Below are positions 2,122 through 24,551 of a stretch of 24,551 nucleotides of DNA, one piece after another (position 1 is the stretch's first letter; each line of letters begins with the position of its first letter). The position numbers and the translations under genes are program-made. The notes beneath the pieces are model-generated. The model was not told where the DNA came from. It worked only from the letters and a program-made list of their open reading frames with translations, and searched no databases. The DNA comes from a virus: positions 1 through 24,551 of IMG/VR virus record IMGVR_UViG_3300047497_000004; one strand, 5' to 3'.

Positions 2122-4611
2122 ATGATGGACAATCAAGCCCTAGAGTTACCCCTGGAGATCGAGAGGGCCTTCGAGACGGCCCAAAAGAAGAACCAGAGGG
2201 CAATCAAGACAGCTGGTCTCGGTGACAGCGATGTCGCCATGCAGATCACCAAGAGCTGCGTCGGCAAGGTTGCATCGTACATCAGGGAACAAATCGTTAC
2301 CCAGGAATACGAATGCACCCGGCTGATCCTCGACATCATCACCCTGGTAGGACATCTGCAGCCCGAGCTGCTGGCCTTATGTGGCCTGAACGCCTGCCTG
2401 AACGGTGTGGCCCAAAACAACTCCACTGCCGAGGTCTACCGCATTGCCGGTGAGAGTGTCCGCGCCGAGGTATGGGCTGCGGGCCTCTACAAGCAATACC
2501 CGGCACTCGCCCGCAGGATCGAGAAGGAAACCCGAGAGGCCTCCGGTGGCGTCAATCGTCGCCGAGAGGTCATGCGCCTTCGCGTCAACAAGGCGCTCAA
2601 GAAGGCCAAGAAGGAACGCTACCGCGCTGCCCCGTGGTCATCCGAGCAGCTGGTCAGCGTCGGCAACTGGCTGGTCAACATGGTCCTGGCGGCAACGCCG
2701 GGCCTCTTCGAGATCAGTCGGCCCGAGGGTGAGGCCTATCGCCTGTTTCTGTGCGCCGATGCGCTGCAGCAGGCCGAGGACGCGGTCGACGAGCTGGTCC
2801 TGAAGTACACGCCGTATCTGCCCAAGGAAACCAAGCCTGCCCCGTGGACCTCATGGGAACAGGTGATCGACGCCGAGCACTGCTTCTCGGTTTCGTTCCT
2901 GCGCACGCGGCACAAGGACATCATCGGTGCCTGCAAAGCCGCCATCAAGGACGGCTCCATGCAGCCTGCGCTCGACGCAGTGAACACCTTGCAGTCAGTG
3001 CCGTGGCGGATCAACAAACGCGTCTACGGCGTCCTGCGGGCCTGCATCGAGCGTCATATCGAGGTGCCTGGGCTCCCGCGTTACGTCGATCTGCCTGAGC
3101 CCGTGCTGGACAAGCCGTGGGAAGAGCTGACCGACCTTGAGAAGAAGCAATACGGGATCAAAAAGTCCGAAGCGAAACTCGTGAATGCCGAGCTGAACAG
3201 CGAACGCTTGATGCTCGTGCAGGACACGAAGATCGCCGAGAAGCTTCACGATGCCGAGTGCTTCTACACCGCTATGAATTGTGATTGGCGTGGTCGCGTC
3301 TACGCGCTGTCTCACTTCAACTTCCAACGCGAAGACCGCGTGCGGGCTCTCTTCGAGTTCGCGAACGGTGAGCCGATTGGCGAAGAGGGTCTGTACTGGC
3401 TCAAGGTTCACGTCGCCAACTGCGGTGACTTCAACAAGATCAGCAAACGGCCGCTGGCAGAGAGGGTGCAATGGGTCGACGACAACATCGAGACGATCAA
3501 GACGTATGCCGAGTTTCCTTTGAAAGAGCTTGGCTGGACGCACGCCGACAGTCCGTTCCTGTTCTTAGCAGCGTGCATGGAGTTGATTGCTGGTATTGCT
3601 CACGGCCCGACCTTTGTGTCTCGGTGCCCTGTCAGTTTCGACGGGAGCTGCAGCGGACTGCAACACCTGTCAGCGATGACACGCGATGCGGAGACGGCAG
3701 CGCTTGTGAACCTGACGCCTGGGGACAGACCTCAAGATGTCTACGGTGTCATTGCCGAGGACGTGAAGCATCGTTTGGAGAATGATGCCGACGAGCTGGC
3801 GCAGAAGTTCTTGGCGCTAGGCGTCGACCGTAAGCTCGCGAAGCGCAACGTCATGACCTACTCGTACTCTTCCAAAAAGTACGGCATGGCGTCGCAGCAA
3901 CAAGTCGACCTGATGGACGAAATGTACAAAGAGGTTGTACTAGGCAAACGCGAAGAGCATCCGTTTGGTCAGAACAAAAAGATCGGAGGCACGGCACCAA
4001 CAAAAGCCGCCCGCTACATCGCCTCGCACATCTTCGACGCAATCGAAGAGCGTATCCATCGGCCAGCACAGGCCATGAAGTTTCTGCAGGCCATCGCGAA
4101 AGCCATGGCTCACGAAGGCAAGCCTGTGATCTGGAAGTCTCCTGCGGGTATCCCGTGGGTCAACCGTTACCACGCCGCTGTCATCAAGACGCTTCGGCTT
4201 TGGATGCACGACCGTGGTGTCATGTCGCCGATCCGCACTGTTGTTGCTGTCGGATACGAGAGTGAGATCGACAAGGACAAAGCCGCCAACGGTGTTGCTC
4301 CGAACTTTGTTCACGCTCTCGATGCTTCTCATTTAATGCTCTCGGTGAACGCTGCAGCGAAGGTTGGGATCACCAACATCGCCACGGTTCACGACAGCTT
4401 CGGTTGTCTCGCCTCCCGAGCAACTGAGTTCAACAAGATCATCCGCGCCGAGCTGGTGCGTATGTACGAGACACGCGATGTCCTCTCCGAGGTCTTGGAG
4501 CAGGCTAAGCGTGACCTAACGCAGCACAATTGGCATAGGCTTCCAAGTGTGCCGCAATTCGGAACCCTCAATCTGAAGGAAATCGAAGATGCAACATACG
4601 CATTCGCGTGA
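2122..4611 (+). CDS. T7-like single-subunit DNA-directed RNA polymerase
   Basis: This 829-residue enzyme transcribes phage genes from phage-specific promoters without a sigma factor. All polymerase motifs are present. Motif A is FDGSCSGLQHLSAMTRD with catalytic Asp507 (T7 Asp537). The motif B O-helix is R570-KLA-K574-RNVMTYSY582 (T7 R627, K631, Y639). Motif C is VHDSFG with Asp758 (T7 Asp812). The C-terminus ends in YAFA, matching the conserved FAFA foot. T7 RNAP has 883 residues, so this one is about 54 shorter, mostly before motif A. The ATG at 2122 follows AAGAAAGG; an ATG at 2125 is equally possible. It is the first phage gene after the attachment site, with no T7-type early 0.x genes before it. 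Confidence 0.97.
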   Translation: MMDNQALELPLEIERAFETAQKKNQRAIKTAGLGDSDVAMQITKSCVGKVASYIREQIVTQEYECTRLILDIITLVGHLQPELLALCGLNACLNGVAQNNSTAEVYRIAGESVRAEVWAAGLYKQYPALARRIEKETREASGGVNRRREVMRLRVNKALKKAKKERYRAAPWSSEQLVSVGNWLVNMVLAATPGLFEISRPEGEAYRLFLCADALQQAEDAVDELVLKYTPYLPKETKPAPWTSWEQVIDAEHCFSVSFLRTRHKDIIGACKAAIKDGSMQPALDAVNTLQSVPWRINKRVYGVLRACIERHIEVPGLPRYVDLPEPVLDKPWEELTDLEKKQYGIKKSEAKLVNAELNSERLMLVQDTKIAEKLHDAECFYTAMNCDWRGRVYALSHFNFQREDRVRALFEFANGEPIGEEGLYWLKVHVANCGDFNKISKRPLAERVQWVDDNIETIKTYAEFPLKELGWTHADSPFLFLAACMELIAGIAHGPTFVSRCPVSFDGSCSGLQHLSAMTRDAETAALVNLTPGDRPQDVYGVIAEDVKHRLENDADELAQKFLALGVDRKLAKRNVMTYSYSSKKYGMASQQQVDLMDEMYKEVVLGKREEHPFGQNKKIGGTAPTKAARYIASHIFDAIEERIHRPAQAMKFLQAIAKAMAHEGKPVIWKSPAGIPWVNRYHAAVIKTLRLWMHDRGVMSPIRTVVAVGYESEIDKDKAANGVAPNFVHALDASHLMLSVNAAAKVGITNIATVHDSFGCLASRATEFNKIIRAELVRMYETRDVLSEVLEQAKRDLTQHNWHRLPSVPQFGTLNLKEIEDATYAFA

Positions 4612-4750
4612 CGACGCGTTCCGCATGGCTCGTGAAGACATCACGCGTCACGGACGCATCCTGATGATCACCGAGGCAATCCTGCAGGCCCGTGGCGTCA
4701 ACACGGCTGCTCTCGAACGCCGACTGTTGGCCGAGAGCAACAACGTATGA
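4589..4750 (+). CDS. Small hypothetical protein (53 aa)
   Basis: The start ATG lies inside the last codons of the RNA polymerase gene, and AAGGAAA sits 6-7 bases upstream, the same ribosome binding site used before the SSB gene. The stop overlaps the next start (ATGA). The product is basic, with a helical middle part (ITEAILQAR) and an ALERRLLAE tail. No family is recognised. The well-placed ribosome binding site and the coupling to both neighbours make it a credible gene despite its size. Confidence 0.6.
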   Translation: MQHTHSRDDAFRMAREDITRHGRILMITEAILQARGVNTAALERRLLAESNNV

Positions 4751-4965
4751 AGGACAAGTTCGCCCGCGAGATCATGCCGGGTGACGAGGTTGTCTATGCG
4801 GTGCGTGACGGTGATACCGCTGCGCTCCGCTACAGCATTGTCAACGAAGTGTTCGACGACAAGGTCCAGGTGCGAACGCAGGGCGGTGAAGGCTCGATGA
4901 CCTACATTCGTCATCCTGACCGCGTCGCTATCGTGTTCTCACGCCCGGTGCCATGCGAGGACTAA
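4747..4965 (+). CDS. Small hypothetical protein, predicted beta-rich (72 aa)
   Basis: Coupled to the upstream gene by an ATGA overlap. The sequence starts MKDKFAREIMPGDEVVYAV and alternates beta-strand-like segments (LRYSIVNEVFDD, KVQVRTQGG, DRVAIVFSR). PGDEVVYAVR followed by a short insert is a pattern seen in small phage proteins with an SH3- or KOW-like barrel. No catalytic motif is seen and function is unknown. Its place among the first genes after the RNA polymerase fits an early host-takeover role, which is inference only. Confidence 0.7.
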   Translation: MKDKFAREIMPGDEVVYAVRDGDTAALRYSIVNEVFDDKVQVRTQGGEGSMTYIRHPDRVAIVFSRPVPCED

Positions 4966-5165
4966 TCGTCTTCGCGCTGCTGATCCTCACGAGACCTGAT
5001 GGTCAACCGATCTGGATCAGCAAGGATGCCATCGCCCTTCTAACGCGTGGCACCCACGTTACCTGCCCACTCCCTAATTCCTCGCACGTGCAGCTGACCT
5101 CAGGGCAATCCCTGTGCGTCCGCAATTCACCCGAGGACATCATCAAACAAATAGGTAAGCAATGA
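4953..5165 (+). CDS. Small protein with a FlbD-like pattern (70 aa)
   Basis: Overlaps the preceding gene by 13 bases and the next by 4. After a hydrophobic start (MRGLIVFALLILTR) the protein reads L-T-R-x-D-G-x-x-I-x-I, a threonine-valine turn (GTHV), V-x-L-x-x-G-x-x-L-x-V, and an acidic-helix ending PEDIIKQI. That order resembles the small FlbD/Swarming-motility family fold. The resemblance is by eye, and the family is short and weakly conserved, so the match is tentative. It could simply be an unrelated small beta protein. The ribosome binding site is weak, so translational coupling is likely. Confidence 0.65.
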   Translation: MRGLIVFALLILTRPDGQPIWISKDAIALLTRGTHVTCPLPNSSHVQLTSGQSLCVRNSPEDIIKQIGKQ

Positions 5166-5344
5166 AGCGCAAGGCCAACATCGTGATCCGCATGGGTGCC
5201 AGCAAGTTCGAGGCGACCGTTCGCAACGGCGACAAGGTCTACCTCTACGATCTGCGCCGCATGACCAAGAAACAAGAGCACGACTTCCGCGTCGAGCTTG
5301 TTGCTCAGTTCCGTGAGGCCGGGCTTCAACAAAAGGCCGCATGA
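5162..5344 (+). CDS. Small basic hypothetical protein (60 aa)
   Basis: The start overlaps the previous stop (ATGA), with AGGTAAGCA upstream. The product is basic (MKRKANIVIRMG...), with a strand-rich first half (KFEATVRNGDKVYLYDL) and a helical second half (TKKQEHDFRVELVAQFREAGLQ). The VRNGDKVYLYDLRRMT segment could form a small nucleic-acid-binding fold, but no family is recognised. It sits in the run of small genes between RNA polymerase and SSB. Confidence 0.65.
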   Translation: MKRKANIVIRMGASKFEATVRNGDKVYLYDLRRMTKKQEHDFRVELVAQFREAGLQQKAA

Positions 5345-5376
5345 GCGAGAAGCTGAAGACAATCCAAGGAAACCAA

Positions 5377-5547
5377 ATGGACCCCGAGACCATCACGACG
5401 GAAACCTTCCGGGCTTGCCGGGACGAAGACGACAATTGGGTCATCGAAGCTGTGCGCAGGGAGGTCAAACTGATCTGCCGCTGCAGCGACGAGGCCGAAG
5501 CGAAACTCATCGAAATGTCGCTGAACGCCACAACGGAGCAACAATGA
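5377..5547 (+). CDS. Small acidic hypothetical protein (56 aa, or 68 aa from 5341)
   Basis: Two starts are possible. The ATG at 5341 overlaps the previous stop but has only AAAAGG close upstream. The ATG at 5377 has AAGGAAACCA directly before it, the phage's preferred ribosome binding site, and is chosen here. The protein is strongly acidic (CRDEDDNWVIEAV) and carries a cysteine pair in LICRCSDEAEAK. No known family is recognised. Its stop overlaps the next start at 5544. Confidence 0.55.
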   Translation: MDPETITTETFRACRDEDDNWVIEAVRREVKLICRCSDEAEAKLIEMSLNATTEQQ

Positions 5548-5726
5548 AGAAGCCGTCACAGGCCTACAAAGGCAACGGCAAGCACACGTGGGAGGCTGTT
5601 GTTGATCAAGACGATGACAACTCTTATCCGACACGACGTCTTCGCGTTCCTGGCGGCTACATCTATCGCCGGGCGAGCGCGATGGTATTCGTGCCGATGC
5701 CTGAGGTCGTGAAACACAAGGTCTGA
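5544..5726 (+). CDS. Small hypothetical protein (60 aa)
   Basis: GGAGCAAC precedes the ATG at 5544, and the TGA overlaps the next start at 5726. The product begins MKKPSQAYKGNGKHTWEAV and contains a charged turn of four aspartates followed by basic beta-like segments (RRLRVPGGYIYRRASAM). No recognised domain. The alternating charged turns and strands suggest a small beta protein. Confidence 0.6.
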   Translation: MKKPSQAYKGNGKHTWEAVVDQDDDNSYPTRRLRVPGGYIYRRASAMVFVPMPEVVKHKV

Positions 5727-6040
5727 TGTCTCCAGACTTGGCAGCGCGCCGCATCTTGGTCGCTGCCTACTGCTACTACGTGCTCGACACGTCACCCATG
5801 AGTGACGCTGAGTACGACAAGCTCTCGAACATCGTTGCGGATCATTGGGACGAGCTGCCGCCTGTAAGGCAATGGGCACTCGGTAATCCCACAGATACCC
5901 GAGCGAGCGGGAGCCACTTCAAGTTCACAACACTCACTGTCGACGCGGCGCGGCACCTCGTGAAAACCGAGCATCCGTACCCGTCGAAGTGGTCTTTCAA
6001 CAAAGAGCATCAGGTCCACTACGTGACCGCTGTGCTCTAA
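5726..6040 (+). CDS. Free-standing LigA Ia-domain-like protein (104 aa)
   Basis: Residues 8-33 match the NMN-binding Ia domain found at the N-terminus of NAD-dependent DNA ligases: YYVLDTSPMSDAEYDKL. The spacing of Tyr17, Asp27, Tyr30 and Asp31 is exactly that of E. coli LigA Tyr22, Asp32, Tyr35 and Asp36, the NMN-binding residues. There is no adenylation domain: no KxDG, OB fold, zinc finger or BRCT. The remainder (WALGNPTDTRASG, FTTLTVDAARHL) is not part of known ligases. It might bind NAD or NMN, modify the host ligase's use of NAD, or work with a separate nucleotidyltransferase such as the one at 16903-17499. All roles are inferences. Confidence 0.75.
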   Translation: MSPDLAARRILVAAYCYYVLDTSPMSDAEYDKLSNIVADHWDELPPVRQWALGNPTDTRASGSHFKFTTLTVDAARHLVKTEHPYPSKWSFNKEHQVHYVTAVL

Positions 6041-6051
6041 CAAGGAAACCT

Positions 6052-6678
6052 ATGGCTCAGAAAAAGCCGCGTATGATCCTTCCTGTCGGTATCGCCGTGT
6101 GGCCGCACCTCAACGAGATCGAGGTGTACCAGCCGGTCGACAAGAAGGGAAAGCCGAACGGCGCGCAGAAGCGCCACTTCATCACCAAGGTGCGCTACGA
6201 TTCCGCGCAGCTGTCGGCGATCAAGGCCGAACTTAAGAAGCACGCGCTCAAGCTTGGCGTCGGTGAAGACGAGATCGACAGCATCAAGCTGCCCTTCAAG
6301 AAGATCAAGGTCAAAGACAAAGAGGGCAACGTCACCGGCCACGAGTTCTTGCTGCAGGCGACCAGCGGAGAGAAGTATCGTCCCCCGGCGTTCGACGCGA
6401 AGAACAACAAGCTTCCGCCGAGCGTCACGATTGGTGGCGGCAGCAAAATCCGTCTCGATGTCACCGTGAACTATTACGATGGCTTCGGTGGTGGCATCAA
6501 TCTCTACATGAACGCCGTTCAGGTCATCGAGCTTGTCGAAGGTGGTCAGTTCCAGAACAACTTCGGCGAGGAAGAGGGCTTCGAGTACGGCGACGAGGAC
6601 GGTGAGGGTCACTCGTCGTTCGGCGACACGACCACCAGCGAAGAGAAACCGGACCCGAAGACGGCCTACGATTTCTGA
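6052..6678 (+). CDS. Single-stranded DNA-binding protein, T7 gp2.5-like
   Basis: This 208-residue protein coats single-stranded DNA at the phage replication fork and, in T7, contacts the polymerase and primase-helicase. Its place in the operon, basic N-terminal part, central OB-fold-like strands (VTVNYYDGFGGGINLYMNAVQVIELV) and very acidic tail (EEEGFEYGDEDGEG... ending AYDF with a terminal aromatic residue) match gp2.5. Length is close to T7's 232. The ATG at 6052 is chosen because AAGGAAACCT lies directly before it. An in-frame start at 5989 lies inside the previous gene and lacks a ribosome binding site. Confidence 0.88.
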   Translation: MAQKKPRMILPVGIAVWPHLNEIEVYQPVDKKGKPNGAQKRHFITKVRYDSAQLSAIKAELKKHALKLGVGEDEIDSIKLPFKKIKVKDKEGNVTGHEFLLQATSGEKYRPPAFDAKNNKLPPSVTIGGGSKIRLDVTVNYYDGFGGGINLYMNAVQVIELVEGGQFQNNFGEEEGFEYGDEDGEGHSSFGDTTTSEEKPDPKTAYDF

Positions 6679-6893
6679 TGCACACTTCAACCTTCGACTA
6701 CCTGAAGCCCACCGACGACCAAGTCAACCAGATGACCATCGTACGCGGCGCTACCGCTACGTACGCTGAGATTTTGCAGACGATACTCCACGACGGCCCG
6801 GACAAAACCTACGTGCTCCGTAAGCTTCGTGAAGTCGCCATGTGGGCTAACGTGGCTATCACCCGCCATGCGGATGGGTCGCCGAGGCAGTAA
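6678..6893 (+). CDS. Acb2-like small phage protein (DUF7681-type helical hairpin), possible anti-CBASS sponge
   Basis: The 71-residue helical protein shows the family pattern: an F-x-Y-x-x-P start (FDYLKPTDDQ), then M-x-x-V-R followed by an amphipathic helix, a short DGPDKTY turn, and the signature helix L-R-K-L-R-E-V-A-M-W-A-N-V-A-I-T-R ending the domain at about residue 63. Acb2 homologues sequester cyclic di- and trinucleotides made by CBASS defence enzymes. The family match is by pattern from memory; binding activity is inference. It overlaps its neighbours by 1 base (TGATG and TAATG junctions) between SSB and endonuclease I. Other members of this family have no assigned function, so the defence role is not certain. 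Confidence 0.75.
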   Translation: MHTSTFDYLKPTDDQVNQMTIVRGATATYAEILQTILHDGPDKTYVLRKLREVAMWANVAITRHADGSPRQ

Positions 6894-7354
6894 TGGGGAA
6901 ACCGGCTCTCAAGGACGCCCTTGAGAACGCCGAGATCGAAGAGGGCTACCGCTCACGTCTTGAGATCAAGGTGGCCAACCAGCTCGCGAGCGAAGGCATC
7001 AAGTTCGATTACGAGACCCTCGTGATCAACTATCAGGTGCCCGCTCGCGACGCGAGGTACACGCCAGACTTCAACTGCCCTGCGCACATCATCATCGAGA
7101 GCAAAGGGCGGTTTGGTCATCGTGGCAAAGGCGGTGCGGACGAACGCAAGAAGCTGATCCTCGTGAAGGAACAGCATCCGCATCTCGATATTCGGATCGT
7201 TTTCCAGAACGCCAAGACACCGATCTACAAAGGCAGCAAGACAACCTACGCCAAATGGGCAGAGGACCACGGGTTTATGTGGGCCGATAAGGGGGTCGTG
7301 CCGCCAGCGTGGATTGCTGAAATGAAACAAGCACAATCAAGGAAGCAATCATGA
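6893..7354 (+). CDS. Endonuclease I, Holliday-junction resolvase (T7 gp3-like)
   Basis: This 153-residue nuclease cuts branched DNA and, in T7, helps degrade host DNA and resolve concatemer branches before packaging. The T7 active-site set is complete: YRSRLE24 (T7 Glu20), YTPD59 (T7 Asp55) and the pair E69-x-K71 in IIIESKG (T7 Glu65 and Lys67). The KVANQLASEGIKFDYE segment after the first glutamate is also diagnostic. Length is near T7's 149. TAATG and ATGA overlaps couple it to both neighbours. Confidence 0.95.
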   Translation: MGKPALKDALENAEIEEGYRSRLEIKVANQLASEGIKFDYETLVINYQVPARDARYTPDFNCPAHIIIESKGRFGHRGKGGADERKKLILVKEQHPHLDIRIVFQNAKTPIYKGSKTTYAKWAEDHGFMWADKGVVPPAWIAEMKQAQSRKQS

Positions 7355-8043
7355 AGTTCTACAAAGGTCAGATCGTCGAGCTGCAGGCTAAGACGCGCTG
7401 TTACAATGCACCGAAAGGATCACGGGCTGTTGTCGTGAACCCTGAGCTGCAGTCCAAATTCAGCAGCGCAGTATGGCTCGACGTGAAGTGGTTGGGTGAA
7501 TTTGATCAGAACGATGGTGGCTACGAACGGACGGACTTCATTCCCGTCGCGACCAAGCCTGCCGATCTGAAAAAGGGAGACCGCGTGGTGATCCTGTCGT
7601 CCTACGACGAGCGCATTATTGGTGCGCTAGGCACCATGATTGGTCACATCTTGGTCGAGATGGACGAGAACTTCCATCAGTTCGACGTTGGCTATCGTGG
7701 GTCGAACGGCAAGACCATTAAGACACTCGGCGGCATCACCAAAGCATCCCGCATCGACAACGAAGCACCGGCGACTGTTGCCGTAGCTCCCGAAGTCACC
7801 GTTGGTGCCACCGTGACGATGGCCGACGAACTGCAGCTCAAGCCTCAGGCCCGCAAAATCCTGGCGCACCTCAAGAGCGGCAAGACGATCTCGCCCGAGG
7901 AAGCCCGCACGGTCTACGCGGTCTACCGCCTCGCCGCGAGCATCCACGAAATCCGTCAGATTGGATACAAGGTCAAGACGACGAACAAAGAAGACGCTGC
8001 CGGTCATCGCTATGCCCGGTACGAACTGAAGCTCGCCGCCTGA
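7351..8043 (+). CDS. Phage protein with beta-rich N-terminus and C-terminal HTH domain (HTH_39-like)
   Basis: This 230-residue protein looks like two parts. Residues 1-140 are beta-rich, with two barrel-like units each opening similarly (MKFYKGQIVELQAK and LKKGDRVVILSS). Residues 150-230 carry the phage winged-helix pattern: Q-A-R-K-I-L-A-H-L-K, then T-I-S-P-E-E-A, VYRLAASIHEIRQIGYKV, and a closing Y-A-R-Y-E-L wing. This matches the phage-encoded helix-turn-helix family I know as PF14090. It may bind DNA or RNA; the target is unknown. An ATGA overlap links it to endonuclease I. Confidence 0.72.
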   Translation: MKFYKGQIVELQAKTRCYNAPKGSRAVVVNPELQSKFSSAVWLDVKWLGEFDQNDGGYERTDFIPVATKPADLKKGDRVVILSSYDERIIGALGTMIGHILVEMDENFHQFDVGYRGSNGKTIKTLGGITKASRIDNEAPATVAVAPEVTVGATVTMADELQLKPQARKILAHLKSGKTISPEEARTVYAVYRLAASIHEIRQIGYKVKTTNKEDAAGHRYARYELKLAA

Positions 8044-8192: not shown

Positions 8193-9836
8193 ATGAGTGA
8201 GTTTGTAGCTCATGAGGCGTGCCCGAAGTGTGGTTCGCAAGACAACCTTGCGCGCTATGACGACGGGCACGCCCATTGTTTCGGCTGTGACTACCACGAA
8301 CCTGCAACAGGAGAAACGAAACGGGTGGATGAAACACCTAAGGATTGGCGACCGATCAGCGGCAACTATCAGGACCTGATTGATCGCGGGATACGCGAAG
8401 AGACCCTGAAGTTCTGGAAGTACCAAGTCGGGACCTACAAGGGCAAGCCTGCCCACATCATGAACTGGCGCGACGAGACAGGTGATCTCGTTGGTCAGAA
8501 GTTCAGACAGCCGGGCAAAGAGTTCAGCTGGCTTGGTGAGGGTACCGATCTGCTCTACGGCATGTGGCTGTGGGGCAAAGGCAAGAGCATCACCATCACC
8601 GAGGGTGAACTTGACGCCCTGTCGGTGAGCCAAGCGTTCGGCAACAAGTGGCCTGTGGTCTCACTGCCGAACGGCTCGAAGTCGGTCAAGAAGGTCATCA
8701 AGCGTTGCTACGACTACCTGATGAACTTCGAGAAGATCGTCCTCATGTTCGATCAGGACGAGCCAGGGCACGCTGCGGTATCCGAGGCTGTCGATCTGCT
8801 CCCTGCGGGTAAGGTCTACATCGCCACGCTGCCCGAGAAGGACGCCAACGAAGTCCTGAAGAAGCACGGACCCGGCAAGATCACTGACGCCTTCTGGAAC
8901 GCCAAGCCGTATCGGCCTGACGGTATCATCAGCGGCGCGGACATCAGCCTGGACGAGCTGCGCACTGCGAGCACCAAGGGGTACAACCTTCGCCTCCCTG
9001 ATCTGAACAATCGGCTGCTTGGGCTCCGTAAGGGTGAGATCACCCTTTGGACCGCAGGGTCTGGCATAGGCAAGTCAACGATGCTGCGTCAGCTCTTCTA
9101 CGAGGTCCACCAAGACTACCCGGAGCTGACGTTTGGAAACGTGTTCCTCGAAGAGAACAACAAGAAGACTGCGCAGGCTTACATCGCGCTGGACAATAGC
9201 GTTCCTCTTGGACGGCTACGTTACAATCCAGAAATCATTACCCCCGAGCAGTGGCAGTCGTCGTACGACCGCGTCGTCAAGGAACGCATGTGGTTCTACA
9301 ACCACTTTGGTTCGCTTGAGAGCGAGCGTCTGATCAGCAAGCTGCATTACATGGCGACGGTACTTAAGGTCGACTTCATTGCACTCGACCACATCTCGAT
9401 TGTTACCTCCGGTTTGGAGAGCAGCAGTGAGGGTGAGCGTAAGGACATCGACATTCTGATGACCCGCTTGCGCCAACTGGTCGAAGAGACCGGCGTAGGC
9501 ATACAGGGCGTCGTCCATCTGAAACGCGTGAAGGACAAGAACTTCAATGAGGGTGGCGCTGTATCGCTTACCGATCTCCGTGGCTCTGCTTCTCTTGAAC
9601 AGCTGTCTGATAACGTCGTGTCACTAGAGCGCGATCAGCAGGGTGACAAGAAGGACGTGTCATTGATCCGCGTGCTCAAGTGTCGTGAGACAGGCGACAC
9701 CGGAGAGAGCGACACCGTGCTCTACAAGCGGGACACAGGGAGACTTGTGTTGACCGAGGCCGAGCAGGCGTTCCCTGAGATCAAGACGGAAGCCGTCGAC
9801 AACAAAGGCAACCCTATCGAACCCGAGGTGTTCTGA
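8193..9836 (+). CDS. Primase-helicase, T7 gp4-like
   Basis: This 547-residue replication enzyme unwinds DNA and makes RNA primers. An N-terminal zinc ribbon uses C10-x2-C13 and C29-x2-C32. The TOPRIM primase domain shows ITEGELDALS, with its metal-binding glutamate, and MFDQDEPG. The RecA-like helicase has Walker A WTAGSGIGKST (T7 GSGMGKST), Walker B FIALDHISIV, and a late motif LRGSASLEQLSDNVVSLERD. Length is close to T7's 566. The start ATG at 8193 directly follows the previous stop; ATGAGTG gives a second in-frame choice only further in. Confidence 0.96.
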   Translation: MSEFVAHEACPKCGSQDNLARYDDGHAHCFGCDYHEPATGETKRVDETPKDWRPISGNYQDLIDRGIREETLKFWKYQVGTYKGKPAHIMNWRDETGDLVGQKFRQPGKEFSWLGEGTDLLYGMWLWGKGKSITITEGELDALSVSQAFGNKWPVVSLPNGSKSVKKVIKRCYDYLMNFEKIVLMFDQDEPGHAAVSEAVDLLPAGKVYIATLPEKDANEVLKKHGPGKITDAFWNAKPYRPDGIISGADISLDELRTASTKGYNLRLPDLNNRLLGLRKGEITLWTAGSGIGKSTMLRQLFYEVHQDYPELTFGNVFLEENNKKTAQAYIALDNSVPLGRLRYNPEIITPEQWQSSYDRVVKERMWFYNHFGSLESERLISKLHYMATVLKVDFIALDHISIVTSGLESSSEGERKDIDILMTRLRQLVEETGVGIQGVVHLKRVKDKNFNEGGAVSLTDLRGSASLEQLSDNVVSLERDQQGDKKDVSLIRVLKCRETGDTGESDTVLYKRDTGRLVLTEAEQAFPEIKTEAVDNKGNPIEPEVF

Positions 9837-10060: not shown

Positions 10061-10236
10061 TCAATCCGATGTGCCCTGTCTGCAGGGAGTTCGACGAAGA
10101 GTGCTTCAAGAAGTCCTTCGTCGCTGGCCGGGCGGTCTGCAGCAAACAACTCGAACTGCCGCTGTGTATGCCGAGTAGCGGCGTGCCGCGCATCAAACAG
10201 AAGGAAGTGTATGAACCGTCTGCTCTTCGATACTGA
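10057..10236 (+). CDS. Small zinc-ribbon-like protein (59 aa)
   Basis: A GTG start at 10057 overlaps the previous stop (GTGA), with GAAGAG just upstream. The first half reads M-C-P-V-C-R-E-F-D-E-E-C, then AVCSKQLELPLC, so paired and later cysteines could bind a metal. An ATG at 10069 is the alternative start. The end overlaps the DNA polymerase start by 26 bases. No known family. Confidence 0.55.
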   Translation: MINPMCPVCREFDEECFKKSFVAGRAVCSKQLELPLCMPSSGVPRIKQKEVYEPSALRY

Positions 10237-12301
10237 GAGCAACGGCCTCCTAGATACCGCAACCAAAATCCACTGTGTCGCTGCGATTGATGTTGATACC
10301 AAAGAGCGCCTCGATTGGAAGCCCGATGACAACGGGTACCTCGAAGCGCTCGACAAGGCCGATGTTCTGATCGGCCACAACATTCAACGCCACGACATTC
10401 CACTGATCACCAAGCTGACCAGTTGGAAACCGCGCCCCACCGTGAAGCTTCGCGACACGATGATCATTGCGCGCTTGGAGCACCCGAACGTCAAGGACAC
10501 TGACAAACAGCTGATCCAGACGGGCAAGATGCCAGCCGGAAAGAAGTACCAGGGCAAGCACACGCTTGGAGCCTGGGGCTATCGCCTGGGCTGTCACAAG
10601 GGTGACTACGCGGACATCAAGGAAGCCGAGTGGCTCGATCTGTATCCGAACCTCGCCAAAGAGCTGCCTGAAGACAAGCTCAAGGAACGGATACTGGAAT
10701 ACGTGTGGGGCACCTGGAGCCCCGAGATGCACGCCTACATGCTGCAGGACCGCGAGACCAACTTGGCCCTGTGGGACTTCCTGCAGGTCGACGAGTATTC
10801 CCAGGACGCCATCGACCTTGAGCATCGCATCGCCCGCGTGTGTGACCTTATGGAGCGCGCTGGTGTGCCGTTCGACGTACCGGCTGCTGGTAAGCTGCAG
10901 GGCGAGCTGCTGACCGAACGGGACAACATCGAGCGTGCGCTGGTTGCCAAGTTCGGCTTCTGGTACGCGCCGGTCAGCCCGAACCCCGACAAGGCGACCT
11001 TCTATCCCAAACAGACCAGCAAGACTTCCACGTTTGTTGGTTGGGAAGACGGTGTGCCGCAATGGAAGGGCTCAGGCTACACCGAAGGCTGTCCTGCGAC
11101 GAAGCTGAAGCTCGTGCAGTTCAACCCCGGCTCTCGCGACCACATCGCCAAGGTGTTGCTTGCGAAGGGTTGGGAGCCGACCAAGATGACGGAGGGCGGC
11201 AAGCCGCAGATCGACGAAGAGACTGTTGAGGCGATTGTTGCTCGCTATCCCGAGTTCGATGGTCTCGGTCGATACCTGATGCTTGAGAAGCGGCTGTCTC
11301 AGCTCGCTGACGGCAAGCGTGCGTGGCTCGCAGAGGTGAAAGATGATGGCCGTATCCACGGCGTCATCAATCCTATGGGGACCACGACGAGCCGTGCGTC
11401 TCACATGTACCCGAACCTTGGACAGGTGCCGAACGCTGCGAGCCCTTATGGCCCGGAGTGCCGTGCTTTGTTCTACGCACCGAAAGGATGGTCAATCGTC
11501 GGCGCTGACCAACAAGGTTTGGAGCTGCGCGGTCTCGCTCACTATTTGGTCCCGATGGATGGCGGCAAGTACGCCAAGGTCGTGCTCGAAGGTGATCCTC
11601 ACTGGCTCCATGCGCAAGTCATGGGCCTCGCCGAGGGTGAGCGAGACAAGCACAACAAGCTGCACGTCATCATCCGCGAAGACGGCTCGAAGCGCTTCAT
11701 CTACGCGTACGTCTATGGCTGTTGGGATGAGAAGGCCGGTGAGATCATCTACACCTGTCTGCTCAAGGCCATGCGTGAGTGTGGCGACATCGGTGGCAAG
11801 GAGCTGTACGTCAAGTTCTTCGGTGACGGGCAATTCCCTACGAAGCGTAAGCTGATCAAAGTCGGCAACACGGTTCGCAGCGCGTTCCTCAATCGCCTGG
11901 AAGGCTTTGGCAAACTCAAAGAGAAGCTGACCAAACAAGTCGATCAGTTTCATTGGGTGCCTGGGCTCGACGGGCGGCGCATCCCTACCCGCTCCGATCA
12001 CTCGGCGTTGAACTTCCTGATCCAAAGCGCAGGCGCGATTGTCTGTAAGCGATGGGTCGTGGACGCGTTCGACGCAATGTGCGCGGCGTTTCGCTATGAC
12101 TTCGACAACCCCTGGAATGGAGAGTTCGTATTCGGACTTTGGGTACACGATGAAATCCAAGTGTGGGTCCGCGAAGGGCTCGAAGAGAAAACCTGCGCCA
12201 TCCTCAAGGCGACCGCGAGCAAAGCTGGCGAGCCGTACGGGTTCCGCGTGCGTCTCGATGGCGAAGCAAAAGTCGGCAAGAACTGGAAAGACACCCACTG
12301 A
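10211..12301 (+). CDS. DNA polymerase, family A (T7 gp5-like) with proofreading exonuclease
   Basis: This 696-residue replicative polymerase is near T7's 704. The 3'-5' exonuclease is intact: ExoI LLFDTESNGL, ExoII IGHNIQRHDIP and ExoIII YMLQDRETN all keep the catalytic acids. The polymerase domain has motif A IVGADQQGLELRGLAHY (T7 Asp475), motif B REDGSKRFIYAYVYG (T7 Arg518, Lys522, Tyr526) and motif C WVHDEIQVW (T7 Asp654). The thumb segment before FNPGSRDHI, where T7 has its thioredoxin-binding insert, is of similar size but different sequence (DKATFYPKQTSK), so dependence on host thioredoxin is open. AAGGAAG precedes the ATG. Confidence 0.97.
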   Translation: MNRLLFDTESNGLLDTATKIHCVAAIDVDTKERLDWKPDDNGYLEALDKADVLIGHNIQRHDIPLITKLTSWKPRPTVKLRDTMIIARLEHPNVKDTDKQLIQTGKMPAGKKYQGKHTLGAWGYRLGCHKGDYADIKEAEWLDLYPNLAKELPEDKLKERILEYVWGTWSPEMHAYMLQDRETNLALWDFLQVDEYSQDAIDLEHRIARVCDLMERAGVPFDVPAAGKLQGELLTERDNIERALVAKFGFWYAPVSPNPDKATFYPKQTSKTSTFVGWEDGVPQWKGSGYTEGCPATKLKLVQFNPGSRDHIAKVLLAKGWEPTKMTEGGKPQIDEETVEAIVARYPEFDGLGRYLMLEKRLSQLADGKRAWLAEVKDDGRIHGVINPMGTTTSRASHMYPNLGQVPNAASPYGPECRALFYAPKGWSIVGADQQGLELRGLAHYLVPMDGGKYAKVVLEGDPHWLHAQVMGLAEGERDKHNKLHVIIREDGSKRFIYAYVYGCWDEKAGEIIYTCLLKAMRECGDIGGKELYVKFFGDGQFPTKRKLIKVGNTVRSAFLNRLEGFGKLKEKLTKQVDQFHWVPGLDGRRIPTRSDHSALNFLIQSAGAIVCKRWVVDAFDAMCAAFRYDFDNPWNGEFVFGLWVHDEIQVWVREGLEEKTCAILKATASKAGEPYGFRVRLDGEAKVGKNWKDTH

Positions 12302-12305
12302 GGCA

Positions 12306-12512
12306 GTGGCACGCCTGCACGATCTAATCGTTCGTGTGTGGCGTCACCACGTCAGTGTGAAGTCCGACTACGCCCGCGAGAACGCGCAGATCGTTGGGAT
12401 GGCCGCGTCGTTACAAATGATCACCACGAAGGTCGGCCGGTCTACCTACGCAAACGCGTGGCACGTGACCAGACAAGGGCTGACGTGGCTTCACGATCAG
12501 GACAACAAATGA
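12306..12512 (+). CDS. Small hypothetical protein (68 aa)
   Basis: A GTG start at 12306 lies 4 bases after the polymerase stop; the ribosome binding site (TGAGG) is close and weak, so re-initiation is likely. The product is basic and helical (LHDLIVRVWRHHVSVK, ENAQIVGMAASLQMIT) and ends WHVTRQGLTWLHDQ, which resembles the end of a small helix-turn-helix, without a firm match. The stop overlaps the next start (ATGA). The reading frame stays open upstream into the polymerase gene, so the start is uncertain. Confidence 0.55.
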   Translation: MARLHDLIVRVWRHHVSVKSDYARENAQIVGMAASLQMITTKVGRSTYANAWHVTRQGLTWLHDQDNK

Positions 12513-12949
12513 AAATCTATATGGCTGGTCCGCTGTTCACGCGGGCCGAGCAGGACTTCAACACGAAGCTCGCTGACCGCCTGCGCCAGATCGGGTTCAA
12601 GATTTGGCTCCCGCAGGACTTCGAGCAGCAGCAGACGACTGCCAAGGCCATCTTCGACATCGACGTTCAAGGTGTTGATTGGTGCGACATCGTCCTGGCG
12701 AACATGGACGGCTCTGATCCTGACAGCGGTACCTGTTGGGAAGTCGGGTATGCCTACAAGCGCAAGCACATAATCCTGTATCGCACGGACATTCGGTCTG
12801 AGAGTGATCCTCTCGGTCCCTATAACCTGATGATGCATCAATCGGCTGACGCGGTGGTCGACTGTAAGGGTATGGCGTTCGAGGCGATGCTGCAGGAGAT
12901 ACTCAAGGCACTCTACGCTGCCGTGAAGAAACGGATGGAGACGAAGTGA
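12509..12949 (+). CDS. Nucleoside 2-deoxyribosyltransferase-like protein
   Basis: This 146-residue protein belongs to the fold that swaps or hydrolyses the N-glycosidic bond of deoxyribonucleosides (transferases and the DNPH1-type hydrolases). It starts with the family's first strand MKIYMAGPLF, has WCDIVLANMDGSDPDSGT in the middle, and the catalytic glutamate is Glu78 in CWEVGYAY. This D-x-D-x-G-T-x-x-E-x-G-Y-A arrangement is characteristic. It probably recycles or alters deoxynucleosides for phage DNA synthesis; hydrolysis rather than transfer cannot be excluded. ATGA and GTGA overlaps join it to its neighbours, just before the exonuclease. Confidence 0.82.
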   Translation: MKIYMAGPLFTRAEQDFNTKLADRLRQIGFKIWLPQDFEQQQTTAKAIFDIDVQGVDWCDIVLANMDGSDPDSGTCWEVGYAYKRKHIILYRTDIRSESDPLGPYNLMMHQSADAVVDCKGMAFEAMLQEILKALYAAVKKRMETK

Positions 12950-14676: not shown

Positions 14677-15036
14677 ATGAGCTGGTGGAAACCCTTTAAT
14701 TGGCGGCGTGCTCGTCCCGTTGTTGACCTGCACGACCTTGCTGACGCCATCAAAGACATCGAGCCTACCAATACACCGCTTCTCAAGAGCATCGAACGCA
14801 AAGCCGAGCTGCGCAAGCTTCCCGGCAAATACGAGGAAGTGTTCTACAAGGGAGCATGGTTCACGTTCAAACAACTGAGCGTCGTCTATGTGGTCCCTGC
14901 TCACATCTTACGGCAACGGATCAAGGATCATAACTGGTCCGTCGAAGACGCTATCAACACACCCGTGCGAGCCAGGACTCGTAAGCAGAGGACTGTCTAC
15001 GATTACGCTTTGAGGAACGGACCAACGAACGACTGA
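14677..15036 (+). CDS. Small protein with phage HTH-like segment (119 aa)
   Basis: CAGGAAAAT precedes the ATG, after one of the few true gaps in the operon. Residues 55-97 contain the pattern Y-K-G-A-W-F-T-F-K-Q-L-S-x-x-Y-x-V followed by LRQRIKDHNWSVEDAINTPV. The ending W-S-V-E-D-A-I-x-T-P is typical of small helix-turn-helix segments attached to phage homing nucleases and DNA-binding proteins. No nuclease domain is present here. It may bind DNA; target unknown. Confidence 0.65.
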   Translation: MSWWKPFNWRRARPVVDLHDLADAIKDIEPTNTPLLKSIERKAELRKLPGKYEEVFYKGAWFTFKQLSVVYVVPAHILRQRIKDHNWSVEDAINTPVRARTRKQRTVYDYALRNGPTND

Positions 15037-15530
15037 TGAAACACCGACGCCTCTACCTCGACATGGACGGCGTGCTCGCCAACTTCGACAAGAGAGCCGA
15101 AGCAATCCTGGGCACGAACAACATCTACAAGTACGAGTTCATTTGGGGTCCTGAGAAGTTCTGGACGGAGATCAACAAGCACGAAGATTTCTTCCTGAGC
15201 CTCGAACTGATGCCCGACGCGTACGAGCTGTACACTGCGGTCTACCATCTGGACCCGGTGATCCTCACGGCACTCCCGAAGACCGGCGCAGAACGCGTGC
15301 GGTCACAGAAGGAAGCCTGGGTCGAACTGAACCTCTCGATCAACGGAAAGGTCCCGAAGGTCATCGCGTGCAAGACGCACGAGAAGCCTTTGTACTGCCT
15401 CCCTGAGGACGTGCTGATCGACGACCGTGCGGTCAATCGTGACGCGTGGCGCAAGGCCGGTGGGCACTACATCGTCCATCGGAATGCCAGCGAGAGCCTG
15501 CAGCAACTAGAATACCTGGGGGTTATCTGA
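15036..15530 (+). CDS. HAD-family 5'(3')-deoxyribonucleotidase-like protein
   Basis: This 164-residue protein carries the HAD nucleophile motif LYLDMDGVLANFDKR (Asp9 and Asp11). Motif II is present as DPVILTALPKT, and the late acidic motif as EDVLIDDRAVNRDAW. The cap region with EFIWGPEKFW fits the deoxyribonucleotidase branch (5' nucleotidase, deoxy C type). It would remove phosphate from deoxynucleoside monophosphates. It sits 4 genes from DUF5664 and MazG homologues, consistent with control of nucleotide pools. TGATG overlaps on both sides. Confidence 0.82.
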   Translation: MKHRRLYLDMDGVLANFDKRAEAILGTNNIYKYEFIWGPEKFWTEINKHEDFFLSLELMPDAYELYTAVYHLDPVILTALPKTGAERVRSQKEAWVELNLSINGKVPKVIACKTHEKPLYCLPEDVLIDDRAVNRDAWRKAGGHYIVHRNASESLQQLEYLGVI

Positions 15531-15727
15531 TGCCCTACTTGGTTCTTGCCAAGGAAACTCAGTCGATCCTCGCGAGCAACATCGTGACGTATGAGAGCGC
15601 GCAGCTGACTGCCGAAGACGCAGCGGCACGTGCTCCCCTGGCTACCTACGAAATCTACTCTATGGTTGCCATCACGAACACTCGCGTACCGAAGCCGACA
15701 ACAGCAAGGATGGAAGTCGTTAAGTGA
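15530..15727 (+). CDS. Small hypothetical protein (65 aa)
   Basis: The ATG at 15530 overlaps the nucleotidase stop. The product starts MPYLVLAKETQSILAS, has a helical middle (QLTAEDAAARAPLATYE) and ends in strand-like IYSMVAITNTRVPKP. No known family. The stop overlaps the next gene's GTG (GTGA). Confidence 0.6.
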   Translation: MPYLVLAKETQSILASNIVTYESAQLTAEDAAARAPLATYEIYSMVAITNTRVPKPTTARMEVVK

Positions 15728-16185
15728 ACCCGAAAGACAAGATCGGCGCGAAGAAGGTCAGCACCTGGGTTATCCCTACTGCAGCGATCTACCACCTCGC
15801 CACAGCCCTTATGGACGGCGCTCGTAAATACGGCGCGTACAATTGGCGTGACGAGCCTGTGCAGTGCTCGATCTATCTGGACGCCATGCAGCGTCACAAG
15901 GACCTGTATGCGGCTGGTCAGGACAAGGCAGCTGATAGCAAGGTGAAGCATCTGGCTCACGTGATGGGTTGCTGCGCAATCCTGATCGACGCTGAGCTGC
16001 ACGGCAAGCTGATCGACGACAGACGTAAGTCTCCTGAGTTCGTCGAGCTGATCGACACGCTGAATGACTTCGTGAAGCATCAAGCGGAGCCTCCGAAACC
16101 GCAACCTTCCGATGACGGACTACAGAACGCCAAGGGTACCCCTGGTGGTCTGAGTTACGTGCCTATGGTGCCGTACTACAAATAA
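15724..16185 (+). CDS. dATP/dGTP diphosphohydrolase-like protein (DUF5664 family)
   Basis: This 153-residue protein shows the family pattern from its first residues: NPKDKIGAKKVS, PTAAIYHLATALMDGARKYG, YNWRDEPV, YLDAMQRHKDLY, SKVKHLAHVMGCCAILIDAE. The paired acidic and histidine residues resemble the metal-binding site of MazG-type all-alpha pyrophosphohydrolases. Relatives annotated as dATP/dGTP diphosphohydrolase occur in phages that alter nucleotide pools, including 2-aminoadenine phages. No PurZ-like gene is visible here, so base modification is not supported. GTG start at 15724. Confidence 0.82.
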   Translation: MNPKDKIGAKKVSTWVIPTAAIYHLATALMDGARKYGAYNWRDEPVQCSIYLDAMQRHKDLYAAGQDKAADSKVKHLAHVMGCCAILIDAELHGKLIDDRRKSPEFVELIDTLNDFVKHQAEPPKPQPSDDGLQNAKGTPGGLSYVPMVPYYK

Positions 16186-16442
16186 TGCCCTGCACGAAGC
16201 AGTCTGACGAGCACAGCACTCTCTACCACGTTCCCGCCTTCGTACCTCAGATCAAAAATCTGAAGCACATGGTGCCCCGGCCTCCCATCGAAGTGTGGTG
16301 GGACCGGGACGCCAAGCGCAAGGACGACGAAGACCTTCTGATCCGTCAGGACAACGGCGACAAAGCCGATGTCATCACGTTAACCCTGGGCCAAGCGTAC
16401 GACCTGATCCACGCTCTAGGCTCCCTGATCATGGACAAGTGA
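16185..16442 (+). CDS. Small hypothetical protein (85 aa)
   Basis: The ATG at 16185 overlaps the previous TAA, and the stop directly precedes the MazG-like start at 16443. It contains VPRPPIEVWWDRDAKRKDDEDLLIRQ and ends with a helical VITLTLGQAYDLIHALGSLI. No known domain. Its position between two pyrophosphohydrolase-like genes suggests a linked role, which is inference. Confidence 0.65.
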   Translation: MPCTKQSDEHSTLYHVPAFVPQIKNLKHMVPRPPIEVWWDRDAKRKDDEDLLIRQDNGDKADVITLTLGQAYDLIHALGSLIMDK

Positions 16443-16814
16443 ATGCAGTTACCTCCTGAAATCGAAGCCCAGGCCAAGGCCATCCTCGAAGGCTTCAATC
16501 TGTACGCTGTGACGGTCGACAAGCACAACAAAGTCGACCCGAAGTTCGGCGTTACCGCTCCGTCCCTGGCGCTCGCCAGCGAGGCCGGTGAAGTCGCAGG
16601 CAAGGTCTACAAAATCCTCCGCGATGCGGACGGCCAGATCACCGACGAGGATCGTCTGGCAATCGCGTACGAACTCGGGGACACCCTGTGGAACCTCATG
16701 GCTGTCGCACGCGATCTGAAAATCCCGTTCGGCGTCGTGGCGCTCCTGAACCTCGTGAAGTGCGAGGACCGCGCGTCCCGTGGCGTCATCGCGGGGTCCG
16801 GCGATAACCGATGA
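16443..16814 (+). CDS. MazG-like nucleotide pyrophosphohydrolase
   Basis: This 123-residue all-alpha enzyme should hydrolyse (d)NTPs to monophosphate and pyrophosphate. The two MazG metal-binding pairs are visible: LASE47-AGE50-VAGK and YE77-LGD80-TLWNL, separated by the usual KILRDADGQ loop. It is a single-domain MazG, about the size of the phage forms. Together with the DUF5664 protein and the HAD nucleotidase it forms a dNTP-handling group. Its stop overlaps the next small gene (ATGA). Confidence 0.88.
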   Translation: MQLPPEIEAQAKAILEGFNLYAVTVDKHNKVDPKFGVTAPSLALASEAGEVAGKVYKILRDADGQITDEDRLAIAYELGDTLWNLMAVARDLKIPFGVVALLNLVKCEDRASRGVIAGSGDNR

Positions 16815-16906
16815 ACGTCCAAGAGGTAGCTGACGTGCTGCTTGGCTTCTTCATTGGGTTCGTCGGCGGCATCCTGTTCACTCTGTTCTACGTGGGGATC
16901 ATTTGA
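16811..16906 (+). CDS. Very small membrane protein (31 aa)
   Basis: A complete short gene between MazG-like and RNA ligase genes, with ATGA overlap at its start and a TTGA overlap at its end. The sequence begins MNVQEVADVLLG, then FFIGFVGGILFTLFYVGII, a single hydrophobic span with small glycine turns. It should be an inner-membrane protein. The overlaps on both sides argue that it is translated. Function unknown. Confidence 0.55.
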   Translation: MNVQEVADVLLGFFIGFVGGILFTLFYVGII

Positions 16907-17499
16907 TCTTCGAGCCGTTCCCTAAGCTCGCACGACTGTCCCGCGAATGCACCATCACAGAGAAGATCGACGGGACGAACGCACAGATCATCATTGTCGA
17001 TCCTGAGACGCTTGAGGGTTCTGAGTACGAAGAGGTCATCCAGGCTGACGCCCTCGCAGAGATCGAAGGTCTGCTTGTGTTCGCTGGTTCCAGAACTCGT
17101 CTGATTACCCCAGGGAAAGCCAAGGATAACTTCGGCTTCGCTGCGTGGGTCTACGAGAACACCAACGACCTCGTGAAGCTTGGTCCTGGCCGTCACTTCG
17201 GTGAGTGGTGGGGCAAAGGCATCCAGCGGGGCTACGGTCTCACCGAGCGCCGCTTCTCGCTCTTCAACACCCACGGCATCCAACACAAGCCAGACTGCGT
17301 CAGCGTGGTGCCTACGATCTACCAAGGACACTTCAGCACGTTCCAAGTCTACCGCGCTATGCTCAAACTTGGACGCGATGGATCAGTAGCTGCCCCAGGT
17401 TTCATGAAGCCCGAGGGCATCGTGATCTGGCACTCGGCCGCGCGGGTCGCCTTCAAGAAAACCTTCGAACACGACGAGAAAGGAAAGGAAGCTGCGTGA
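16903..17499 (+). CDS. RNA ligase family protein (nucleotidyltransferase domain only)
   Basis: This 198-residue protein is a covalent nucleotidyltransferase of the RNA ligase family (PF09414 type). Motif I is TEKIDGTNAQI with nucleophile Lys21; a motif III-like segment is HFGEWWGKGIQRGYG (99-111); motif IV is EGIVIWH with Glu171; motif V is FKKT with Lys185/186. There is no separate C-terminal domain, as in the smallest family members. It would seal RNA ends; use on nicked DNA is possible but less likely. The TTG start at 16903 overlaps the previous stop and has GGGGA upstream; no better start exists in frame. Confidence 0.85.
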   Translation: MIFEPFPKLARLSRECTITEKIDGTNAQIIIVDPETLEGSEYEEVIQADALAEIEGLLVFAGSRTRLITPGKAKDNFGFAAWVYENTNDLVKLGPGRHFGEWWGKGIQRGYGLTERRFSLFNTHGIQHKPDCVSVVPTIYQGHFSTFQVYRAMLKLGRDGSVAAPGFMKPEGIVIWHSAARVAFKKTFEHDEKGKEAA

Positions 17500-17666
17500 A
17501 CAAGCTCCGTCTTGTTGAACAAGTCACTGCTCTCGTTAACTCCAAGGTCCCGCCGTGTGCGGTTGACCTTCGGATCAACACCGACAACATCGAGTACCTG
17601 CATCCGACGAAGGGTTGGAAGCGGGTGGCGTTTCGGCGCTTCGGTGTGAAGGCCTACGCTGCGTGA
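17496..17666 (+). CDS. Small basic hypothetical protein (56 aa)
   Basis: GTG start at 17496 with AAAGGAAAGGAAG upstream, overlapping the ligase stop, and GTGA overlap at its end. The product is basic (MNKLRLVEQVTALVNSK, then PTKGWKRVAFRRFGVKAYAA) and may bind nucleic acid. No family recognised. Very strong ribosome binding site for its size. Confidence 0.62.
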   Translation: MNKLRLVEQVTALVNSKVPPCAVDLRINTDNIEYLHPTKGWKRVAFRRFGVKAYAA

Positions 17667-20766: not shown

Positions 20767-20789
20767 GAGATAGAACCTTTCGGTTTAAG

Positions 20790-23814: not shown

Positions 23815-23826
23815 GGCAAAGAAACC

Positions 23827-24240: not shown

Positions 24241-24241
24241 A

Positions 24242-24532: not shown

Positions 24533-24551
24533 TTGATCCGTTGGAAAAAAG

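Follow-up and report, generated by a model that had tools for sequence, protein, structure and literature searches.

Recurrent and exchangeable small genes between the RNA polymerase and single-stranded DNA-binding protein genes of a T7-like prophage

In the record of Escherichia phage T7 (NC_001604, viewed to position 11500), small genes stand on both sides of gene 1, the RNA polymerase gene: the 0.x genes precede it, and genes 1.1, 1.2, 1.4-1.8 and 2, which include those for gp1.2 and the host-polymerase inhibitor gp2, lie between it and gene 2.5. Two further described phages are close to the locus considered here. Pseudomonas phage LUZ100 has an integrase upstream of its polymerase and a single small gene, gp14, between the polymerase and the single-stranded DNA-binding protein (SSB) (PMC10134795). 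Rhizobium phage Pasto (MT708545) is presented as T7-like and possibly temperate (PMC8407765). The present locus belongs to IMG/VR virus record IMGVR_UViG_3300047497_000004, positions 1 to 24,551; this whole stretch of 24,551 nucleotides is referred to below as the window, and its assignment to a T7-like prophage is supported. Behind its RNA polymerase gene lies a block of six short genes, A-F (4589-5726). It is on balance probable that this block is the gene 1.1-2 region of a temperate T7-like prophage, built as a mosaic of two layers: the A and D families, which the comparison of relatives shows to recur between polymerase and SSB, and the rarer, exchangeable genes B, C, E and F, together with a seventh gene, G.

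Place and reality of the gene block

The gene order of the window is polymerase, small genes, SSB, one further gene, endonuclease I, helicase-primase and DNA polymerase. The plus strand encodes a T7-like single-subunit RNA polymerase of 829 amino acids (2122-4611), with tblastn matches in 2584 phage records (for example LUZ100, 31%), a gp2.5-like SSB (6052-6678; phrog_112, E 1.9e-16) and a homologue of T7 endonuclease I (6893-7354; PF05367, E 4e-45). The helicase-primase (8193-9836) and the DNA polymerase (10211-12301) are named from matches to genes so annotated in LUZ100, and we take T7 genes 4 and 5 to be their counterparts. As in the T7 gene 1.1-2 region, same-strand small genes lie between the equivalents of gene 1 and gene 2.5 and are followed by SSB and endonuclease I; unlike the T7 0.x region, the block is downstream of the polymerase gene. 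Since the T7 0.x genes stand before gene 1 and T7 has small genes of its own after it, the block is, judged by gene order, the counterpart of the T7 gene 1.1-2 region, between genes 1 and 2.5, and not of the 0.x region. The two regions nevertheless differ. No significant sequence relation links the T7 region to genes A-H of the window (G and H follow the block), the best comparison, D against gp1.1, reaching E 0.027 among 15 T7 proteins, and neither a ligase nor a kinase is found among the window genes at the block. Furthermore, the window polymerase gene overlaps the first small gene, leaving no gap for a promoter. T7 and LUZ100 both carry annotated promoters for the phage polymerase directly behind its gene, either ahead of the first small gene or at it. 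Against gp0.3-gp0.7, the A-H profiles give nothing better than E 0.076 among the same 15 proteins; such genes diverge fast.

The earlier note on this DNA had described six short overlapping genes, several preceded by AAGGAAA ribosome-binding sites and none with a clear family. The chain itself is borne out. All six open reading frames begin with ATG, neighbours overlap by 4, 13, 4, 4 and 4 nucleotides, and gene A overlaps the polymerase gene by 23 nucleotides. Gene G (5726-6040) continues the chain through a one-nucleotide overlap and ends before SSB, and of the six junctions that link A through G, four contain a common ATGA. A chain of seven ATG frames of at least 50 amino acids appears in none of 2000 dinucleotide shuffles, where the longest has four (in four shuffles), and codon scores favour the annotated frame over the other five in all seven genes, most weakly in C (0.06 nats per codon). 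The ribosome-binding motif is present but less general than had been supposed: AAGGAAA precedes only two of the six genes, at 4576-4582 before A and at 5366-5372 before an internal ATG (5377) of E, while the third copy in this region, at 6042-6048, is that of the SSB gene. The motif occurs 12 times over both strands of the window versus 2.1 expected.

The lack of a clear family also holds, as nothing above the curated cut-off is obtained for A-F in Pfam, PHROGs, PADLOC or NCBIfam. The nearest approach is that of C to FlbD/SwrD (PF06289), with 22.5 bits under a cut-off of 24.7. Gene A has no PHROG match, and neither A nor D has a significant match in Pfam or PHROGs. No counter-defence match is found for A-F in Pfam, PHROGs or NCBIfam, and PADLOC, whose library covers defence rather than counter-defence genes, gives no match for any of the seven proteins. 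Paper listings on related topics name neither A nor D, families which are nameless and hence not searchable by name.

Ratios of nonsynonymous to synonymous substitution rates (dN/dS), pooled over non-independent pairs of relatives restricted by polymerase distance, amount to 0.37 for D, 0.28 for A and 0.36 for F, all below 1. Those of the polymerase are lower in the matching comparisons (0.19, 0.17 and 0.095, respectively), so that A and D stand at approximately 1.7 and 1.9 times its value. When the restriction on polymerase distance is lifted, the medians are 0.60 for D, 0.51 for A and 0.38 for F, and single D and A pairs exceed 1. Judged from these ratios, selection on D is purifying, and weaker than that on the polymerase.

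That the reading frames are spurious could be argued from the shortness of the genes, the weakness of some ribosome-binding sites, the low codon score of C and the weak match of the sole relative of E. The absence of a seven-gene chain from all shuffles speaks against it, as do the relatives found in polymerase-SSB intervals for every gene of the block, though only weakly for E, and the dN/dS values below 1 for A, D and F. Spurious frames are thus rejected by the shuffle test and judged refuted for A, D and F; for the block as a whole, they are extremely improbable.

Turnover between polymerase and SSB

Relatives were collected with endonuclease I and a polymerase alignment as queries; the polymerase as a plain query retrieved none from the two collections, presumably since the peptide patterns lay in variable regions. 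The sample comprises 125 distinct polymerase-to-SSB intervals, from 138 before removal of identical ones, and loci whose polymerase match missed the C-terminus (for example L065) were dropped. Forty-four of the intervals were reached through D, 43 by D searches and one (Pasto) by a D hit, and 81 otherwise, the window included. Genes in the relatives were called with a home-made caller.

The intervals range from 12 to 4955 bp, with a median of 2472 bp where D is present and 498 bp where it is not. Their 691 called genes fall into 174 families, 101 of which are seen in one phage only. Profiles recover D in 59, A in 40 and F in 10 of the 125 intervals, window included, and B and E in two each and C and G in one each, the last four counts containing little beyond the sequences used to build those profiles. 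Among the 81 intervals not reached through D, D is found in 15 and the wider A superfamily in 27. In a clade of 37 phages around the window, 77 families are counted, 35 of them in a single phage and 52 in at most three; only two exceed 80% of the clade, D with 34 and the A superfamily with 32 of the 37 phages, where 29 members had been found by D and five of the other eight carry it. The comparison therefore supports strong gene turnover behind the polymerase that is not uniform: the A and D families recur, and B, C, E and F are rarer. Rapid turnover among relatives, which the earlier note had anticipated, is thus seen for the locus overall but not for A and D, and the opposite outcome it had named, high conservation of every gene, is not what is observed, although two of the six genes belong to families kept at this place.

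Gene D (5162-5344, plus strand) encodes a basic protein of 60 amino acids with a predicted beta-beta-beta-alpha arrangement, a member of an undescribed family between RNA polymerase and SSB. Two alignments of D relatives, used to search viral contigs, retrieved 58 and 10 loci, respectively. All 62 new loci, on 59 distinct contigs of which two were already in the sample, have SSB downstream, and all 53 with a polymerase match have the polymerase upstream. The proteins measure 51-79 amino acids, carry a net charge of +2 to +19 in all 59 listed, and share the patterns I-x-I-R-M-G-A and F-D-L-x-x-M. The predicted structure of the window protein consists of three strands and a helix (predicted local distance difference test score, pLDDT, 83). 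For 18 members, no Pfam or PHROG match is better than E 0.001, and the D profile matches no PDB sequence. On a polymerase tree (FastTree, 113 of the 125 intervals, with long-branch warnings), the presence of D requires six changes versus 37.7 in shuffles, a comparison in which near-copies make the shuffles look worse than they should; both halves of this tree contain D. Where the host of a D locus is named, it is Rhodopseudomonas palustris, Mesorhizobium loti, Chelatococcus sambhunathii or a Rhizobiales isolate; the family is also present in phage Pasto, where the D-family protein gp16 lies directly behind the polymerase (E 4e-6). Pasto resembles the window in this respect, in its A-superfamily gp19 before SSB and in its upstream integrase; it differs in the order (D then A), in the neighbours and in low identity, and its gp16-gp19 are annotated as hypothetical. 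D has no match within the 12.7 kb of LUZ100 searched. Atu_ph02, Atu_ph03 and Alfirin contain D-like matches (E 0.006 to 0.1) that lie away from any annotated polymerase and are not counted.

Gene A (4589-4750, plus strand; 53 amino acids) belongs to a helical-hairpin-like family within a superfamily of which LUZ100 gp14 and Pasto gp19 are also members; hits of the profile in these two phages arise by construction, since it was built with both of them. The superfamily, found in 69 of the 125 intervals, rests on single-linkage clustering (E 1e-4) plus one profile comparison, in which the two halves of the cluster align with an hhalign probability of 94 and E 1e-7. Its member directly follows the polymerase in 33 of the 69 intervals and directly precedes SSB in 16. 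LUZ100 is thus similar to the window in carrying an A-superfamily gene in this interval, and differs in having one annotated gene there versus seven.

The remaining genes of the chain, all on the plus strand, are more restricted. Gene B (4747-4965; 72 amino acids) occurs in two of the 125 intervals, including that of the window, and matches PHROG 2251 weakly (E 0.0024). Gene C (4953-5165; 70 amino acids) has a hydrophobic N-terminus besides its sub-threshold FlbD-like pattern, and its only homologue is in L065. Gene E (5341-5547) encodes 68 amino acids, or 56 from ATG 5377, which may be the true start; a possible relative is present in L052 only (tblastn E 0.011, with a profile built from the two), and in NCBIfam a PIN family is matched below threshold (15.2 vs 29.15 bits). 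Gene F (5544-5726; 60 amino acids) is detected by hidden Markov model in 10 of the 125 intervals, in nine of them within a longer called gene of 129-155 amino acids, and is 55-57% identical to L065; its 15-phage cluster joins longer genes and may be chained. Gene G (104 amino acids), the last of the chain and beyond 4589-5726, matches PF22745 with 38.5 bits (cut-off 27) and is, by this domain match, a stand-alone relative of the N-terminal (Ia) NAD+-binding domain of LigA. In contrast to LigA it carries no catalytic ligase (nucleotidyltransferase) domain, and the NCBIfam LigA model gives 15.1 bits against a cut-off of 369. G-like genes are found at other places of T7-like phages (L027, L067 and L071) and in L332, where the 9 kb examined contain no T7 core gene. 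NAD+ or the host ligase is a possible target of gene G.

The prophage end and the neighbouring genes

The 3' half of a tRNA-Cys gene, from the anticodon stem to CCA, occupies 48 bases on the minus strand (1932-1979), approximately the region covered by the listed tRNA-type matches (80-94% identity), and the polymerase starts 142 bases past it. No complete tRNA is found in the window, and ARAGORN reports tRNA-Cys in all five fetched matching places. Some match to the 1021-base query, to the tRNA or to the PCMT gene (1164-1820), is present in 202 of 297 genomes. The half gene is apparently an attachment half-site at the left prophage end. A discrepancy concerns the PCMT gene, which is on the same strand as the half tRNA-Cys in the window and divergent from tRNA-Cys in the four of the five fetched places with a PCMT match (one of them short).

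An integrase is found in 12 of the 15 virus records examined, the window, G001 and G029 having none. In all 12 it shares the strand of the polymerase and precedes it by no more than about 1.5 kb, an adjacency derived by hand from coordinates and seen in G009 and G025 only across contig ends. In the three relatives inspected over the upstream 10 kb (L053, L057 and L064), the integrase is preceded by several small forward genes in a row, and the annotation of LUZ100 and S-CBP3 likewise places such a run upstream of integrase and polymerase. Left of the polymerase, the window record holds only host-type sequence. If integration occurs between integrase and polymerase, the two ends of the prophage would carry the polymerase and the early region, respectively, and the half tRNA would in this way explain the missing left region. 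Judging from the relatives, the 0.x-type genes of the window phage are probably at the other prophage end, outside the truncated record.

Gene H (6678-6893, plus strand; 71 amino acids) lies between SSB and endonuclease I, in the slot of T7 gene 2.8, and starts 952 bp beyond 5726, the end of the six-gene block. It exceeds the cut-off for PF24729 (Acb2_Tad1_hairpin; 38 bits vs 27), and its model (pLDDT 92) is a helical hairpin. The top Foldseek match is T4 Vs.4 with cGAMP (7uq2; probability 0.89), but with E 0.63 it is not significant, and the comparison with the Acb2/Vs.4 fold (VIA Z 7.0 over 64 residues, 3.1 A) is tied with unrelated helical hairpins. H also differs from Acb2 and Vs.4 in that neither it nor its profile retrieves such a chain from PDB sequences up to E 1. 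Plain tblastn of H gives nothing below E 0.5 in 160 loci; PF24729 is detected in none of 34 relatives, but 14 control genomes are silent too, so that absence is not shown by this search alone. Viral contigs contain at least 164 relatives of H, up to 73% identical, and none of the 80 fetched has a T7 core gene within the stretch examined around it, on which basis H looks imported from unrelated phages. H is fairly probably the dedicated counter-defence gene of the neighbourhood, a candidate for binding the cyclic-nucleotide signal of CBASS or Thoeris. The slot between SSB and endonuclease reaches 150 bp or more in 10 of 105 phages, window included, and in Pasto it holds a cytosine methyltransferase.

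Further along the window, 7351-8043 encodes a winged-helix (PF14090) protein with only a sub-threshold NCBIfam match; in many relatives its C-terminal part is found again, either next to endonuclease I or ahead of the helicase. Regions 12509-12949 and 15036-16814 carry a nucleoside deoxyribosyltransferase, an NT5C-like nucleotidase, a dATP/dGTP diphosphohydrolase N-domain and MazG, a set that may point to altered nucleotide pools. An RNA ligase domain protein (16903-17499; PF09414, 32 bits, cut-off 27) possibly repairs tRNAs cut by host defence. The short frame that follows (approximately 17499-17666) contains a YLHPTKGW-like stretch, recognised by eye also in the first gene after the polymerase of L053, L054 and L055; these frames are perhaps one family at different places. 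Lysis and tail-type genes occupy 19168-24550 on the minus strand, where the record ends, and oppose the replication genes, unlike the single direction of T7; they include a glycosyl hydrolase 108 (19768-20766, minus strand), the tail-type reading of the remaining genes being made by eye.

Possible functions and competing explanations

If the block is the gene 1.1-2 region of a temperate phage, it would be expressed together with the polymerase, probably from the polymerase's own transcript, at induction or infection, in lytic growth. The start of A inside the polymerase gene and the overlap of each start with the previous stop suggest production together with the polymerase. Within the recurrent layer, D would bind an RNA polymerase or nucleic acid and so help phage transcription to replace that of the host, and A would be its small helical partner; the grounds for choosing D are its small size, its basic charge and its link to the polymerase module, the polymerase-SSB setting being the only one in which it has been seen so far. 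This role is proposed only tentatively, and one in replication is nearly as likely. The exchangeable genes would act on host targets, some perhaps in counter-defence, although that at least one of B, C, E and F does so is less than probable, and H would sequester the cyclic-nucleotide signal of CBASS or Thoeris.

Several observations weigh against this picture. D is not found in 66 of the 125 intervals, including those of L014, L016 and L017, close relatives in the window's own clade, and by this distribution it is dispensable. The high share of D in that clade, most of which was found by D itself, and the near-copies on the polymerase tree lessen the weight of its recurrence. The fold of D has no Foldseek match at E ≤0.001 among 102, and its VIA Z is at most 3.5. 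Against T7 gp2, hmmsearch gives E 1.5 among the 15 T7 proteins, with no significant fold match, and the value obtained against gp1.1 is not significant over nine profiles. No repeated promoter-like motif is recognised among the 20 of 41 repeat families seen, so the timing of the block is borrowed from T7 and LUZ100. In addition, the truncated record does not contain its other prophage end, and the functions of the block genes are deduced from place, size and charge.

The earlier note had proposed that the block is a displaced T7 0.x region, with host-shutoff and anti-defence genes moved behind the polymerase. Small genes of strong turnover next to the polymerase and purely host-type sequence to its left would agree with such a move. 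T7, however, has its own small genes at the same place, the three inspected relatives, LUZ100 and S-CBP3 keep a small-gene run upstream of integrase and polymerase, and the half tRNA accounts for the missing left region through integration; none of the six genes matches PADLOC either, though this is a defence rather than a counter-defence library. The displacement is not supported, and it is improbable.

Two other explanations are credible without reaching the likelihood of the two-layer mosaic. A and D might serve phage replication or transcription, for instance as partners of SSB, polymerase or helicase, with only the extras acting on the host. Their linkage to the polymerase-SSB-endonuclease module, the preference of the A superfamily for the first or last position of the interval and the purifying selection would be in line with such a role, whereas their absence from many otherwise similar modules in the searches and dN/dS values well above that of the polymerase bring them closer to host-facing genes. 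Comparable weight is given to the possibility that the exchangeable genes are mostly defence-facing, in counter-defence or superinfection exclusion, and that the interval is a general accessory hotspot. The large proportion of single-phage families suggests this, as do the adjoining H, which looks imported, and the variable SSB-endonuclease slot with its methyltransferase in Pasto; on the other side, none of the six genes has a counter-defence match, and turnover by itself is no proof of function.

Under the two-layer mosaic, the small genes at this place are of two kinds, helpers that are conserved and extras that are exchanged, each calling for experiments of its own. At stake is how a phage with a self-amplifying polymerase lives quietly as a prophage, and A and D stand beside that polymerase in many relatives. 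How the LUZ100 polymerase is first switched on is raised as a question in the description of that phage (PMC10134795). A further, rather unlikely suggestion is that D with A is a dedicated and so far undescribed regulator acting on an RNA polymerase, which would tie the burst of the self-amplifying polymerase to the lysogeny-lysis decision, a device T7 does not need. Such a role would explain why D is retained at the polymerase in Hyphomicrobiales prophages, in both halves of the tree and amid changing neighbours; if it is true, D and A would constitute a regulator used by T7-like phages with integrases.

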